A DNA stretch of 50,627 nt from assembly GCA_947598285.1 (NCBI GenBank), contig CANQFE010000004.1:1-50627 (forward strand), given 5' to 3'. Below are positions 137 through 48,603 of this stretch, piece by piece (the stretch's first letter is position 1; every line of letters begins with the position of its first letter). Below the pieces are notes generated by a model, which searched no databases, was not told where the DNA came from, and saw nothing but the letters and a program-made list of their open reading frames with translations. The DNA is from an uncultured Bacilli bacterium (GTDB lineage Bacteria > Bacillota_I > Bacilli_A > RF39 > UBA660). Made by a program: the position numbers and the translations under genes.

Positions 137-168
137 ATTTTATCAATTACCCCCCCCCCAGAAGTCAA
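137..168 (-). promoter_or_regulatory. Promoter with homopolymeric G tract in spacer (C10 on + strand at 150-159)
   Basis: -35 TTGACT (163-168), -10 TAAAAT (137-142), 20-nt spacer containing G10; same layout at 13351-13382 and 48572-48603. Confidence 0.65.
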
Positions 169-8549: not shown

Positions 8550-9830
8550 TTAAAAAAGAACTGATTTTCGTTTTGCTTTCATTTTTTCTTTTCCAATAAA
8601 TTCCATTTGATAAGAATGATTTTTTTCTTTCAAAATTTGAAATCCCAATTTTTGCCAGAAATGAAGAAGAAAAGAATGATCTTTTAAAACTTCAAGAGAA
8701 ATGGTTTTTTGAGGATATTTTTTCTTTAAAGTTTCAATAACATTAGATCCTATCCCACAATAACGATAAGCTTCCTCCAAATAAATATCAAAAATAATCA
8801 TTGTATCATCTTTGATAGAAAACCAAAGAAAACCTCTATTTTTTCCTTGAACTGAAATAAGATAAAAATCATTGAAATCCTTTGTCGTTAATCTTTTTTT
8901 TCGATTGAAACTTTGATAATATTGGATAATTTCTTTCGCATTTTTCTTTGTTGCTTCTTTTAATTCATATGACTCAAAAGGATTCACATGGATACTCACA
9001 TATAAAATTTTTTCATCAAATTCCCGTAAAGCATTTTCCACTTCATGAATATGACGATGTGACTTTAACAAAGAAAGAAAAGGATTCATACTTACCTCGG
9101 CATCTACTTTATAATAAGCCCCAAATTTAATGACTCGTAAAGAATCAATCTGGGCAATTTCTTTTTGATTCAAAATAATTTCTTTGATTTGTTTAAGATA
9201 TTCTTCATCAGTTTCTTGCTCTTCTAAAATTAAACTTAAATTTTCCCTTAAAATTTGAAAGCCAACTTTAATAATTAATAATCCCACTAATATCATTGCT
9301 AAAAAATCAGCATATTTTAAAATTGGAATCTGTTTAGAAAGTTGCATTAAAAAGACTGAAATAAAAACAACAATAGAACTATAGACATCCGTTTTACTTT
9401 CATTACCACTAGCAATTAATAAGTTACTTTTTTTCCTTTTTCCTTCTTTTAATAAAAATGTAGCCAAAAAGAATTTCACAATTACAGTAAAAAAACTAAC
9501 TCCTAAAACAAAAAGACTTGGGATAACAATTTGTTTTTGAAAAGATTCTTTTAAAATGGACAATCCTAAAAAAAGAATCACAACAGCAATAAATATACTT
9601 GTAATATATTCTATTTTTCCATGACCATAAGGATGCTTTTCATCAGCCGGTTTTAAAGAAAGCTTACTACCAAAAATCGCGACCAAATCCGTGACTAAAT
9701 CACTAAAAGAATGAAATCCATCTGCAATTAAAGCTCCACTACCACCAAAAATACCAGCAAAAATTTTAAGAAGCGACAAAAAAAAATTAGTAAAAAAACT
9801 GACTTTCATAATTTTTCCTACAGAATTCAT
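8550..9830 (-). CDS. Cation diffusion facilitator fused to C-terminal GNAT-like acetyltransferase domain
   Basis: ADGFHSFSDLVTDLVAI and HPYGHGK...EYITS CDF motifs; last ~120 aa has GNAT pattern 'AYRYCGIGSNVIETLKKK...FWQKLGF'. Confidence 0.85.
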   Translation of the reverse strand: MNSVGKIMKVSFFTNFFLSLLKIFAGIFGGSGALIADGFHSFSDLVTDLVAIFGSKLSLKPADEKHPYGHGKIEYITSIFIAVVILFLGLSILKESFQKQIVIPSLFVLGVSFFTVIVKFFLATFLLKEGKRKKSNLLIASGNESKTDVYSSIVVFISVFLMQLSKQIPILKYADFLAMILVGLLIIKVGFQILRENLSLILEEQETDEEYLKQIKEIILNQKEIAQIDSLRVIKFGAYYKVDAEVSMNPFLSLLKSHRHIHEVENALREFDEKILYVSIHVNPFESYELKEATKKNAKEIIQYYQSFNRKKRLTTKDFNDFYLISVQGKNRGFLWFSIKDDTMIIFDIYLEEAYRYCGIGSNVIETLKKKYPQKTISLEVLKDHSFLLHFWQKLGFQILKEKNHSYQMEFIGKEKMKAKRKSVLF

Positions 9831-10030
9831 TTAAGAAAACAACTCCTTTATGTTAAGATATGCAAAAAATATCCTTAAGTTTGTACTTTATTTTATCATG
9901 TTTTTGAAAAAATGAATAGATTCTTTGCAATATTTTTTAAATGAATAAAAAAGCTTCATATATTAAGTTGCAATTTTTCAATGATTATGATAAATTAAAC
10001 GTAATTTTTGAAAAAAGGAGAGAAAAAATT

Positions 10031-11905
10031 ATGAACCAAAACATTGAAGAAACAATAAAAGAAAATATCAATAACTATTTATTAGAATGCTTTCCTACTT
10101 TAAAAATCTCTTTAAAAATGAAAACAATTTTATTAAATAATGTTAAAAATGAAATACCTCAAAAAGGCCATATTTCTGAAATTCTCATTAAAAAAATAAG
10201 TAAAAAAGAAATAAAAAAGATGGTTTATCAAATTATTCATCAAAATCCTAATTCAATTTTAGCAAACTCTTTATTTGAACCTAATCAGATCTATTATTAT
10301 CATATGAATGGTCGCTTTCACATAACTGAAAATCAACAAACCAAAGATTTATTCATTTTAGCTGTTTTATCTGCTTTACTTGAAAATTCAATCAAAAAAG
10401 AAACTGAAATTACAGCATTTTATCAACAATTTTTAAATGAACAAAAATTAATGATTCCCAAAACTATTCATTTATATGAAGAAAAAAATATTCCTCAAAT
10501 AGAAAAAGATTTTCCTGGAGATAAAAAAATATTATCTAATCTCCTTTCCTATCTTCCCAAAGATGCTAAAGAGATACTAAAAAATATTCATATTGAAAAA
10601 ATAGACGAAGAAGAATATCTTTTTTGGCAAAGAATTCTTTCAAATATGTCTCGATTCTACTTTCTTATGATTTATTTAGAAAAAACTGAAACAGAAAAAA
10701 AAGAAATATTAGAGCAAGTAAATCATACAGAAAAATACTTTTCTCATCTTCTTTCCTTACAACAAGAATTTTTTAAAACTTTGCCTATCTGTGAAGAAAT
10801 TTGGGAAAAGAAAATGAAGTCATTAGCCAGTACAAATCCTACAGTTTACACAGTCATTCAAATTTTTCTTGGAAAACAATTAAATGAATTTTTTATTCCA
10901 ACTGAAAATATTCTTTCAGTAGTAAAAAATTATTTAACAAAATTTCAAAAAATTTCATTAAAACAATTATTTCCAAAAAAAGAAATTACGATGTTTCCAA
11001 TCGAAATTGAAACTTTAAAAGAACTTAGTCCAGAAAGTTATCAAATGATTGTTTCCTATCATGGAGCCGATGGTTTAAAAGAATCTGAAATAAAAACAGA
11101 AGATATTTTATCATACCAAAAAGCAATAAAACAAATGGATCAACTTTTATCTGAAACAAAAGAAAAACAAAAAATAAAATTAAATCCATCAAATCTCTTT
11201 TTTGAATATTTTCCCGAAGAAAAGCAAAAATTTTTACAAGAAGTAGTTCAAAAATTTAAAATAAATAATCCAGTATCTTACAATATTATCATTAACGTCC
11301 ATGGAAAAAATTTAGACAGAAATGAAAATATTTTACCATCTTCCTATCCAAGATATCGATATGCCATGAATCAATTTCAAAATTTTTTACAAAAATATAA
11401 AAATGGAGAATTTTATACATTATACGATAAATTAACTGGTTCAGATATTCAAATTCGTCATGCGATTGAAGTCCTAAAATTTAAATGTCAACTTTCTTTA
11501 CAAGAATCCAATTTTATCCACATTATTTATCAAAAACATGGCAATAGTTTAAGAAAATGCCGAATGCTAACTTCAGAAGAAAACGAAATTTATGAACTAG
11601 CAATAAAAAGATTACAAGAAATAATTGATAATCAAGAACAAGTTACTCTTTTCGAATTTTTAGCTAAATCTTTTTCTCAAGAAGAAATTTTAAATGGTTT
11701 AGAAGTTTTAAAAGATCATGCTCCTATTTCTTACTCTAATTTACAACTTCTTTGTGGCAATGATTTTAAACATATGACACATGTAAAAAAAGAAGAGAAA
11801 AATAAATCCTATGATGCTTTAAACAGATTAAAAACTATCATGATAGAAGAAAGAGAAAAGGCTGAAGAAAATAATTTAAAATTAACGGTGAAAAAAGAAA
11901 TATAA
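10031..11905 (+). CDS. Unknown helical protein with ~60-aa degenerate repeats
   Basis: ORF 9941..11905; likely start ATG at 10031 preceded by AAAAAAGGAG; repeated pattern [P-x-S-Y-x-x-I-x-x-x-H-G-x-x-L]. Confidence 0.7.
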   Translation: MNQNIEETIKENINNYLLECFPTLKISLKMKTILLNNVKNEIPQKGHISEILIKKISKKEIKKMVYQIIHQNPNSILANSLFEPNQIYYYHMNGRFHITENQQTKDLFILAVLSALLENSIKKETEITAFYQQFLNEQKLMIPKTIHLYEEKNIPQIEKDFPGDKKILSNLLSYLPKDAKEILKNIHIEKIDEEEYLFWQRILSNMSRFYFLMIYLEKTETEKKEILEQVNHTEKYFSHLLSLQQEFFKTLPICEEIWEKKMKSLASTNPTVYTVIQIFLGKQLNEFFIPTENILSVVKNYLTKFQKISLKQLFPKKEITMFPIEIETLKELSPESYQMIVSYHGADGLKESEIKTEDILSYQKAIKQMDQLLSETKEKQKIKLNPSNLFFEYFPEEKQKFLQEVVQKFKINNPVSYNIIINVHGKNLDRNENILPSSYPRYRYAMNQFQNFLQKYKNGEFYTLYDKLTGSDIQIRHAIEVLKFKCQLSLQESNFIHIIYQKHGNSLRKCRMLTSEENEIYELAIKRLQEIIDNQEQVTLFEFLAKSFSQEEILNGLEVLKDHAPISYSNLQLLCGNDFKHMTHVKKEEKNKSYDALNRLKTIMIEEREKAEENNLKLTVKKEI

Positions 11906-11944: not shown

Positions 11945-13321
11945 TTAAATTATATATGGATTTTCTATTGTTCCATTTGTATTTTTAGAAACTAAAACAT
12001 CTGTTTTTAAGTATAATGTTGGATTTAAGGAGGCATTATTCGCGGCTCTTAAAAATTGAACATTGAGTTTGTAAAAATATATAACGTGTGTAGAAAAAGT
12101 ATCTGCAGAAACAGAATTTAAAGTATAACCAGTTATATCAGACATCCAATTATTAGAATAACAAATTTCATTCATAAGATTTACAGATTGACTTATCTTT
12201 ACAGAACAACCTCTAGGCAAAGACGAATAGATATAATCGGACATATATGGTAAGGCAATCCTTCCTTTCCATAAAATAGTTCTAGGTACATTATCATTAC
12301 ATGAAGTACCAGAATTGCATGTTTTACTTAATCGATTACTTCTTTCATCATTATAAAATATTTGGGCTGTATAATCTTTCGAATCACTCATATTTAAAGC
12401 TCCTGTATTCCAAGTGACTGTATCTATCAATTCATCAACTTGTTTTAAACCTCTTATCTTATTTCCATTCTTTCCATCAAAACTACAAGAATCTTTTTGA
12501 TTAACATATGTTCCATCGTCCTGTGGAATGACTTTAGTATAACAAGTTTGATTGATTTTGTTTTGAGAATAATAATCATTTAACACTTGATTTACATCGG
12601 AAGTAGACCATTCATTGACTCCATATCCCTTATTTACAGTATTTTCAGAACTGTCCCAAGCATACATTCCAATACTATCATTTCTTATTAGTTTTATTCT
12701 TTGGCCTTCTGGAGTATTGACTAATCCGATGATTCTCCATAATTCATGATTAAACCACACATAATTATCTGGATTACTCCCTGCATATCTTAATTCTTCT
12801 TGTTTTAAAAGATCTTGTTTTTCTTTTTCTTCTGTATATGTTATTTCGGCAGCTTCATGACTTACTTTATATAAGCCTGATTCTCCACTATCTTCTTCTT
12901 TGATTGGTACTTCTTTTATTTTATCTATAAAGTTTTCTCCACTTTCAAAATATAACACACATTTTGTATGGCTGGTTAATATTCCTTCTACTGTGATACT
13001 TCCATCTTCTCTATGATACCAGGGAATAATATTATCATCTTTCTTTCCTAATTTTCCACAGTAACTTTCTTTTGAATTAAAAACATAATTACTTCCTTTT
13101 TGAGGTACTTCTTTACTTAATACTCCATCAACATAAAATGCAAAATAGACATCTCCGGGATCACTTACATTTCCATTAATAAGATCTTCATTTTCTATGA
13201 CTTGAAAGCTTGCAAATGTTTTATATAGAAAAACTCCTGTGATGAATAACACACATGCTATGGTAAAGATTATGATATATTTTTGTCTGTTATTTTCTTC
13301 TTTAAACTTTTGTAATTTCAT
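11945..13321 (-). CDS. Membrane-anchored surface protein, shared N-terminal anchor cassette
   Basis: MKLQKFKEENNRQKYIIIFTIACVLFITGVFLYKTFASF anchor; 'YVWFNHELWRIIGLV' ectodomain. Confidence 0.8.
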   Translation of the reverse strand: MKLQKFKEENNRQKYIIIFTIACVLFITGVFLYKTFASFQVIENEDLINGNVSDPGDVYFAFYVDGVLSKEVPQKGSNYVFNSKESYCGKLGKKDDNIIPWYHREDGSITVEGILTSHTKCVLYFESGENFIDKIKEVPIKEEDSGESGLYKVSHEAAEITYTEEKEKQDLLKQEELRYAGSNPDNYVWFNHELWRIIGLVNTPEGQRIKLIRNDSIGMYAWDSSENTVNKGYGVNEWSTSDVNQVLNDYYSQNKINQTCYTKVIPQDDGTYVNQKDSCSFDGKNGNKIRGLKQVDELIDTVTWNTGALNMSDSKDYTAQIFYNDERSNRLSKTCNSGTSCNDNVPRTILWKGRIALPYMSDYIYSSLPRGCSVKISQSVNLMNEICYSNNWMSDITGYTLNSVSADTFSTHVIYFYKLNVQFLRAANNASLNPTLYLKTDVLVSKNTNGTIENPYII

Positions 13322-13327
13322 TTAAAA

Positions 13328-13382
13328 AATCACCATACCTATTTATGATGATTTTATCAAATACCCCCCCCCCAGAGGTCAA
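13328..13382 (-). promoter_or_regulatory. Promoter with homopolymeric G tract in spacer (C10 at 13364-13373) and inverted repeat at transcription start
   Basis: -35 TTGACC (13377-13382), -10 TAAAAT (13351-13356), spacer 20 nt; IR AATCACCATA/TATGATGATT 13328-13353. Confidence 0.65.
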
Positions 13383-46627: not shown

Positions 46628-48541
46628 TTAAGGAGATAAAACAACACGGAAACTAAAAGCAGTATCTGCTTGCCCATTGACACCATGAAATGCATAAACG
46701 CCTGAATCTGTACCATCTCCATATCCTCCACCACGTCTGAACCATGGGTTACTTGAAACTATAAAATAGGCTAAATCAGCATTGTAACTTCCGATAAATC
46801 TTGCTGAAGTTCCACCATTATATGAAACACGGTAAAACGGTCCTAACTCTTTGGTAGCATCTCCCAATACTCCTCTTTGATATTCTTGATCTATTGTTTT
46901 GTAATCATATAAATCATAATATTTTGAAGATGACCATTCTTTTCCATTTGTATTTGTTTTATTTTCACCACAATTACTACCCCTTCCACCATTTTCTTTG
47001 CAATTACTATATAGCCCTTTAAATCCTGAATTATTGGAAGAATCAGCTCCACTTGCTGGAGATGAAGATGCATTACTGCCTTGCATTACCCCCATGACAC
47101 AATCCCAGGCTCCTCCTGCCATATCATAGATTCCACTGTAATTTCCAGTGGTACTTGATTGTACACTAGACGAATTATAATAATGATATCCATTGTCTCC
47201 ATCTTGATTTAACGTTGTTGAATCTGTACTATTATATACTGGACTTCCTGCTGTTGGTACATTCTTTGCACTATATCCTGTAATATAATCACTATTATTA
47301 TTAATCCTTACTTCTTCACATTTTTCATTAGTACATCTACCAAACTTCGAATTTGTTAAATAAGTGACTGCTCCCCATTCACTGTTTTTCATCATGTGAC
47401 TTTCTAATTCACGTTTGTAATTATATGATGTATAAAAGGCGTTAGCTATTTGTATTCCTCTCCAACTATACACATTTGGTTTGATGATGACTTTTGATGG
47501 TTCTTCTTTATTCGTATTGCTAGTATTTTCTGCATTTGCTTTGGTCCAATTACTTGTTGTAATTTCTTTTGTTGTATCACTATTTTGATTATATCCTGTT
47601 TCAAATTTTCCGACCCAGAATCCATTACTATCAAAAGCTTCAAAAGCGGGATGAGTGATAGAATCTCCTTTTTTACTTCCTTGTTTATTGCCACTATCTT
47701 TTGTTTCAAATGCGATTTCAAAAACAGAGCTTTCTCCTTTATTTCCTACTTTATTAGTTGCTTTCATCGCTTCATAAACTTCTGTTACATTTGTTTTATT
47801 TCCTAATTCTGTTACACTAGTATATACTGTATATGTACTTTCATCTTCTTGTAATACATATCGATATCTTGGAATCCATACAAAATAACTTTCAATATCT
47901 TTTTCTTTGATTTCTTCTCCTGGTGTATAGTTATCAACTACTCCATCTCTTAATATCACTGCATTCGCCCATTGCTGTTTCCCATAGTTATACCATTCAC
48001 TAGTAATATCTGCTTTCTCTACTTTTCCTGCTTGTGCTCCAACATAAGTTATATCACTTGGTTTTTCATCTTCTGATATAACCACTGGTACTAATCTTCC
48101 ATTCATTAAATCTGGTATCGCTCCATTTAATGTATCTTCTTCATAGATCTTCTTAAAATGTAAATAACATTTCGTTTTCGTTGTTGTAATATTGGATAGA
48201 TATGGTCCCCATCTTTCATTATCCCAATTGATTCTACTTACTTTCTCTCCTGTTGTCATATCTTTGCAATAACTACTACTAGTATCTAAACTATATCCTT
48301 CTTCTTTCTTTGGTGCTGTCTTTGATATTTTATCTTCTTTTCCATCATCGATATAAAAGGCAAACTCTAAATCTCCTATATCTTGTACTTCTCCATTTAT
48401 GATATCTTCATTTAGATTTGTTTGAAAGATGGCAAATGTTTTATAGATGAAAACTCCTGTGATCAATAATACACAAGCTATCGTAAATATGATTATTACT
48501 TTTTGATTTTTATTGTTCTCTTTAAATTTTTGTAATTTCAT
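46628..48541 (-). CDS. Membrane-anchored surface protein with C-terminal FGE-sulfatase/C-type-lectin-like domain
   Basis: Shared MKLQKFKE anchor; HPAFEAFDSNGFWVGKFETG, YSGIYDMAGGAWDCVMGV, SFRVVLSP. Confidence 0.8.
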   Translation of the reverse strand: MKLQKFKENNKNQKVIIIFTIACVLLITGVFIYKTFAIFQTNLNEDIINGEVQDIGDLEFAFYIDDGKEDKISKTAPKKEEGYSLDTSSSYCKDMTTGEKVSRINWDNERWGPYLSNITTTKTKCYLHFKKIYEEDTLNGAIPDLMNGRLVPVVISEDEKPSDITYVGAQAGKVEKADITSEWYNYGKQQWANAVILRDGVVDNYTPGEEIKEKDIESYFVWIPRYRYVLQEDESTYTVYTSVTELGNKTNVTEVYEAMKATNKVGNKGESSVFEIAFETKDSGNKQGSKKGDSITHPAFEAFDSNGFWVGKFETGYNQNSDTTKEITTSNWTKANAENTSNTNKEEPSKVIIKPNVYSWRGIQIANAFYTSYNYKRELESHMMKNSEWGAVTYLTNSKFGRCTNEKCEEVRINNNSDYITGYSAKNVPTAGSPVYNSTDSTTLNQDGDNGYHYYNSSSVQSSTTGNYSGIYDMAGGAWDCVMGVMQGSNASSSPASGADSSNNSGFKGLYSNCKENGGRGSNCGENKTNTNGKEWSSSKYYDLYDYKTIDQEYQRGVLGDATKELGPFYRVSYNGGTSARFIGSYNADLAYFIVSSNPWFRRGGGYGDGTDSGVYAFHGVNGQADTAFSFRVVLSP

Positions 48542-48548
48542 ATTAAAA

Positions 48549-48603
48549 AATCACCATACCTATTTATGATGATTCTACCAAATACCCCCCCCCCAGAGGT
48601 CAA
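48549..48603 (-). promoter_or_regulatory. Promoter with homopolymeric G tract in spacer (C10 at 48585-48594)
   Basis: -35 TTGACC (48598-48603), -10 TAGAAT (48572-48577), 20-nt spacer. Confidence 0.65.

Follow-up and report, generated by a model that had tools for sequence, protein, structure and literature searches.

The sequence at positions 13351..13382 on the minus strand of the analyzed window belongs to a set of 48 near-identical promoters that, with good probability, are phase-variable and control a surface-protein family in an uncultured bacterium of the RF39 lineage. The window (50,627 nucleotides) is the entire contig C4 of a draft genome of 1.41 Mb in 99 contigs. The cell probably switches these surface proteins on and off at random, as judged from the arrangement of the sequence. 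Our confidence is high for the anatomy of the promoter, moderate for the cassette acting as a switch and lower for the direction of switching.

A poly-G promoter cassette and the genes downstream

Read on the minus strand from 13382 to 13351, copy 2 of the cassette in the window is TTGACC-TCT-G10-TATTTGA-TAAAAT. Its -35 element (TTGACC, 13377..13382) was read directly from the sequence, its G10 tract (13364..13373), the presumed slippage switch, lies within a promoter spacer of 20 nt, and its -10 element (TAAAAT, 13351..13356) is preceded by the TG of an extended -10. The promoter is upstream of, and 29 nt away from, a gene (11945..13321, minus strand, ATG at 13321) encoding a 458-aa surface-type protein with an N-terminal membrane anchor and a variable C-terminal domain. 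The first-pass annotation had placed TTGACC-[20 nt, G10]-TAAAAT before this gene, correctly in both sequence and coordinates, and the spacer that it considered shared with copy 1 is indeed the same, since copies 1, 2, and 3 of the window all carry G10 and 20 nt. The copy 1 promoter (137..168, minus strand, G10 at 150-159) belongs to a gene that leaves the contig at its start (3-107), while copy 3 (48572..48603, minus strand, G10 at 48585-48594, -10 element TAGAAT) precedes a 637-aa gene (46628..48541, minus strand) whose C-terminus is of a diverged variable-region type (PWFRRGGGYGDGTDSGVYAF...SFRVVLSP) and whose structure model has a pLDDT of 40.

The 458-aa protein matched no Pfam family above the cut-off and gave a moderate AlphaFold model (pLDDT 78). 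The sole match of this model in the PDB below an E-value of 0.001 was an IgA peptidase chain from Thomasclavelia ramosa, a match too weak (TM-score 0.30, rmsd 10) for the fold to be named. Convergent with the gene is a 654-aa ORF without a Pfam match (9941-11905, plus strand), and a single ORF at 8550-9830 (minus strand) encodes a cation-efflux transporter fused to a GNAT acetyltransferase domain.

The draft genome holds 57 tracts of G8 or longer (56 and one at a contig edge), against about three G8+/C8+ runs expected per 1.41 Mb from a first-order Markov estimate based on the window. The genome-wide counts come from pattern searches, and sequence reading covered the stretches around the matches. 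The same promoter cassette holds 48 of the 57 tracts, which rules out the possibility, raised in the first-pass annotation, that such tracts are equally common away from promoters. Its consensus is TTGAC[CT]TCT-G10-TA[AT]TTGATA[AG]AAT-CATCATAAATAGGTATGGTGATTTTTT-ATG, and all 36 copies retrieved through the downstream hairpin alone (up to three mismatches, no G required) contain the G tract. Among the 48 paralogs, 41 tracts are G10, four are G11, two are G9 and one is cut at a contig edge, these length differences (G9-G11) being between paralogs only. In 46 of the 48 copies the homopolymer could be measured between the -35 and -10 elements; spacers of 20 nt predominate (40 of 46), with four of 21 nt and two of 19 nt. 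TTGAC is retained in every copy with the -35 region assembled (46/46), and TGn precedes the -10 element in nearly all. Four diverged copies divide the flanks of the tract as 2+8 instead of 3+7, and their total is still 20 nt. Further G8-G11 tracts occur beyond the cassette (L032, L033, L061, and L072), some of them apparently coding, and at C1:17565 (L031) a G11 stands immediately 3' of a hairpin (CACCGTTTATAAACGGTG) and upstream of a 271-aa ORF, outside any TTGAC promoter.

The 30 complete ORFs downstream of the cassette are all intact (337-696 aa), and 32 aligned products have a conserved N-terminal membrane anchor and a divergent ectodomain or C-terminus, so that the products are presumably displayed at the cell surface. 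Scans of the downstream proteins with Pfam and NCBIfam gave nothing useful. The first-pass annotation had proposed that the geometry is conserved and looks selected while the ectodomains differ, which is borne out by the 20-nt total across flank partitions, species and genera, and also that switch and N-terminal anchor move together as one cassette, which in this form is not supported. The same cassette precedes anchor family A (MKLQKFKE...), family B (MKKKTIMIIG...) and a third start (MKQKRI...); five full-length family-A genes have unrelated promoters linked to XRE-like ORFs; and in the sister species G071 families A and B stand under two different G10 promoters. A strict bond between the cassette and one anchor was thus rejected, at least two N-terminal families being driven by it. 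At C29:15395, the cassette is not followed directly by an anchor start.

Related promoters were found in other genomes. In G071, the family-A promoter is TTGACA-G10-TATATTGTGA-TAAAAT (flanks 0+10) and the family-B promoter is TTGACT-TTTA-G10-TTATGG-TAGAAT (flanks 4+6), with spacers mostly of 20 nt and with 18, 19, and 21 nt once each. In G027, from another genus of the same family, TTGACA-TA-G10-TAATATGC-TATACT (20 nt, flanks 2+8) stands before a homologous anchor gene, while the homolog of a third species has an interrupted G7 and a 19-nt spacer. The total of 20 nt remains constant though its flanking parts change, which argues that the distance between the -35 and -10 elements is itself under selection. 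A family-wide pattern search matched at least four of 145 genomes, a lower bound because the pattern misses variants such as that of G027, and a search of a viral collection did not find the cassette. Two other genera (G009 and G080; L087, L088, L091, and L092) have G8-G9 tracts after TTGAC at a different spacing.

Spacer length as a putative switch

If the G tract undergoes slipped-strand mispairing, the distance between the -35 and -10 elements would change by single bases, and the altered distance would set transcription separately for each gene. The state to be expected at G10 can be judged from promoters of the same genome. Near-consensus promoters across the genome have their spacing peak at 17 nt. 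Besides, among the 40 family-A anchors there are five full-length genes without a G tract (L195-L199), adjoining divergent ORFs whose sequence resembles that of HTH/XRE regulators, and their spacer is 17 nt in all four that could be measured; several of these tract-less promoters are flanked by palindromic repeats. Compared with both references, the tract promoters are three bases over-long as assembled, and the common state is therefore probably off or weak. A gene would be switched on as its spacer shortened towards 17-18 nt.

Poly-G tracts also occur within codons. Another surface gene, present in three copies (C3, C43, and C90; L037, L150, and L151), has a G10 inside its signal-anchor codons, and as assembled its frame closes after 21 codons. 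With G9 or G12, the two copies with an assembled body would have open frames of 770-794 aa, and two of the three copies end in variable-region-type domains. Both the over-long promoter spacers and the out-of-frame coding tracts are consistent with most loci in the population being off or weak. Slippage within the loci, and which length is on, are inferred, and some points weigh against a switch: tract lengths cluster closely around G10, as they would for a fixed element no less than for one that switches and has reached mutational equilibrium; 17 nt would need three contractions; and a MutS homolog is present in the genome, on which ground loss of mismatch repair was rejected as a cause of slippage. 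Moreover, short-read drafts are unreliable at tracts of this kind (cautioned in PMC4577077).

The same clustering supports the strongest alternative, which we consider unlikely though deserving of weight, namely that G10 with 20 nt is the working state, owing to the extended -10, to an unusual geometry of G-tract DNA or to a MerR-like activator, and that the tract has a fixed structural role instead of serving as a switch. The conservation of the 20-nt total across flank partitions and genera and the TGn before nearly all -10 elements would agree with this reading. MerR-type regulators correct over-long spacers, in which a spacer of 19-20 nt holds a dyad operator; the spacer TCT-G10-TATTTGA has the length and contains no dyad, and a MerR-type promoter was rejected for that reason. 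Other observations against a working state are that the paralogs vary from G9 to G11, that the same genome has coding G10 tracts out of frame, that the homolog of the third species works, if at all, with its interrupted G7 and 19 nt, and that G runs of such length are prone to slippage in other bacteria.

It is very improbable that the cassette is mainly a recombination substrate, in which repeats of promoter plus anchor serve the shuffling of ectodomains and the G tract is incidental. In favor of this reading, similarity among the copies is much higher over the promoter and the initial ~200 nt of each gene than over the remainder, the promoter is combined with several anchors and many contigs break within the cassette; every copy, however, has its own complete promoter, tract and intact gene, the genes that were read include no silent store lacking promoters, and the 20-nt rule persists within unrelated flanking sequences. 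An assembly artefact, with repeats collapsed or tract lengths flattened in the draft consensus, is hardly credible even though many contigs end inside the cassette, as the copies differ in upstream flanks, point variants and genes, and the design recurs in other species that were assembled separately.

Hairpin over the ribosome-binding site and comparison with known switches

Downstream of the spacer, copy 2 has a conserved 10-bp hairpin, AATCATCATA-AATAGG-TATGGTGATT (13328..13353, minus strand), with a predicted fold of -8.4 kcal/mol and a z-score of -3.0. Its 5' arm overlaps the -10 element and its 3' arm contains the ribosome-binding site GGTGAT (13334-13329, minus strand), which is complementary to the 3' end of 16S rRNA. 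Among 11 variants from three species, 99.1% of the pair cells hold; one pair is altered on both sides and C/U changes lie opposite G, a conservation that is suggestive only, because the independent changes are few. Since the 5' arm overlaps the -10 element, a transcript with the usual start distance would be without this arm. We infer that the hairpin may act as a guard against read-through, as it would mask the ribosome-binding site solely in read-through RNA, in which case expression would depend on the gene's own promoter.

Phase variation through a promoter spacer is in itself already known, and the shared cassette of 48 copies would be a variant of it. In Neisseria meningitidis, porA has a poly-G in its promoter spacer, and one base gained or lost changes transcription (PMC3899988; PorA is also treated in PMC4577077). 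The cassette likewise has a G run within the sigma-70-type promoter spacer of a surface-protein gene. It differs in that 48 genes are concerned instead of one, in the over-long default of 20 nt and in the conserved hairpin over the ribosome-binding site, and the surface proteins and the bacterial lineage are unrelated. In the Vlp system of Mycoplasma hyorhinis, each vlp promoter has a poly-A tract and the genes are switched independently at transcription (PMC10502178). The resemblance here lies in a multigene surface family with a homopolymer-tract promoter for each gene, independent switching being established for Vlp and proposed for the cassette; the differences lie in a poly-A and few linked genes there against a poly-G and 48 scattered loci here, and in lipoproteins varied by coding repeats there against membrane-anchored proteins, some of variable-region type, here. 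The three surface-gene copies with a G10 in the reading-frame region, out of frame as assembled, are similar to coding poly-G loci of the Campylobacter type, from which the main tract differs by being in a promoter instead of a coding sequence. In the literature library that we searched, no paper treated both RF39 and phase variation.

If the proposed switching is true, an uncultured bacterium with a genome of 1.4 Mb has a repertoire of promoter-spacer phase variation that ranks among the largest we know, sharing one cassette and overlapping with variable proteins of the retroelement type. It would also offer 48 natural replicates for studying the effect of spacer length and G-tract slippage on expression, and it predicts a read-level outcome open to checking in existing metagenomes.

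A diversity-generating retroelement in the same genome

The genome contains a diversity-generating retroelement (DGR), with a reverse transcriptase, Avd, template repeats and an adenine-specific variable region. On C39, the reverse transcriptase (RVT_1) adjoins bAvd (77.5 bits) and an ORF with MutS domain I (43.6 bits), and two tandem template repeats (C30:13899-14379) immediately precede the G10 promoter of a cassette gene. The variable region on C39 differs from the first repeat (TR1) at 19 positions over 142 nt, all at TR1 adenines, and that on C58 at 18 positions, 16 of them at adenines. Other variable-region-type genes have drifted from the template repeats, so that any current action of the retroelement on them is putative.

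Ten cassette-driven proteins end in WFxRG...G...G...SFRVxLTP-like regions, and a poly-G tract is present in every one of the 12 variable-region-type genes whose 5' end is assembled, lying in the promoter of ten and in the reading frame of two; five more such genes, cut by contig ends before the promoter, are outside these 12. A profile of the variable-region type matched the Thermus DGR variable protein 5vf4 with an E-value of 0.81 only. As in DGRs with FGE-type C-type-lectin variable proteins (TvpA and TaqVP), there is a reverse transcriptase, a bAvd, two template repeats and an adenine-specific variable region, here in proteins related to the gene of copy 3. Unlike in those systems, the targets are associated with poly-G promoters, which is the unusual part, and the 458-aa gene is without a template repeat: BLAST of its last 376 nt returned short conserved stretches only, mostly from paralogs, and its candidacy as a retroelement target was rejected for want of a matching repeat. 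Taken together, a two-layer system is conceivable, though we hold it only tentatively and as somewhat less probable than its absence, in which about 50 poly-G switches (48 in promoters and three coding) would randomly choose lectin-like surface proteins, the retroelement would rewrite some of the binding faces and the hairpin would insulate each gene from read-through. The retroelement parts lie on C39:9000-12955 (L147) and C30:12000-15299 (L148); these contigs, each of which breaks off within a gene of the target type, may be neighbors.
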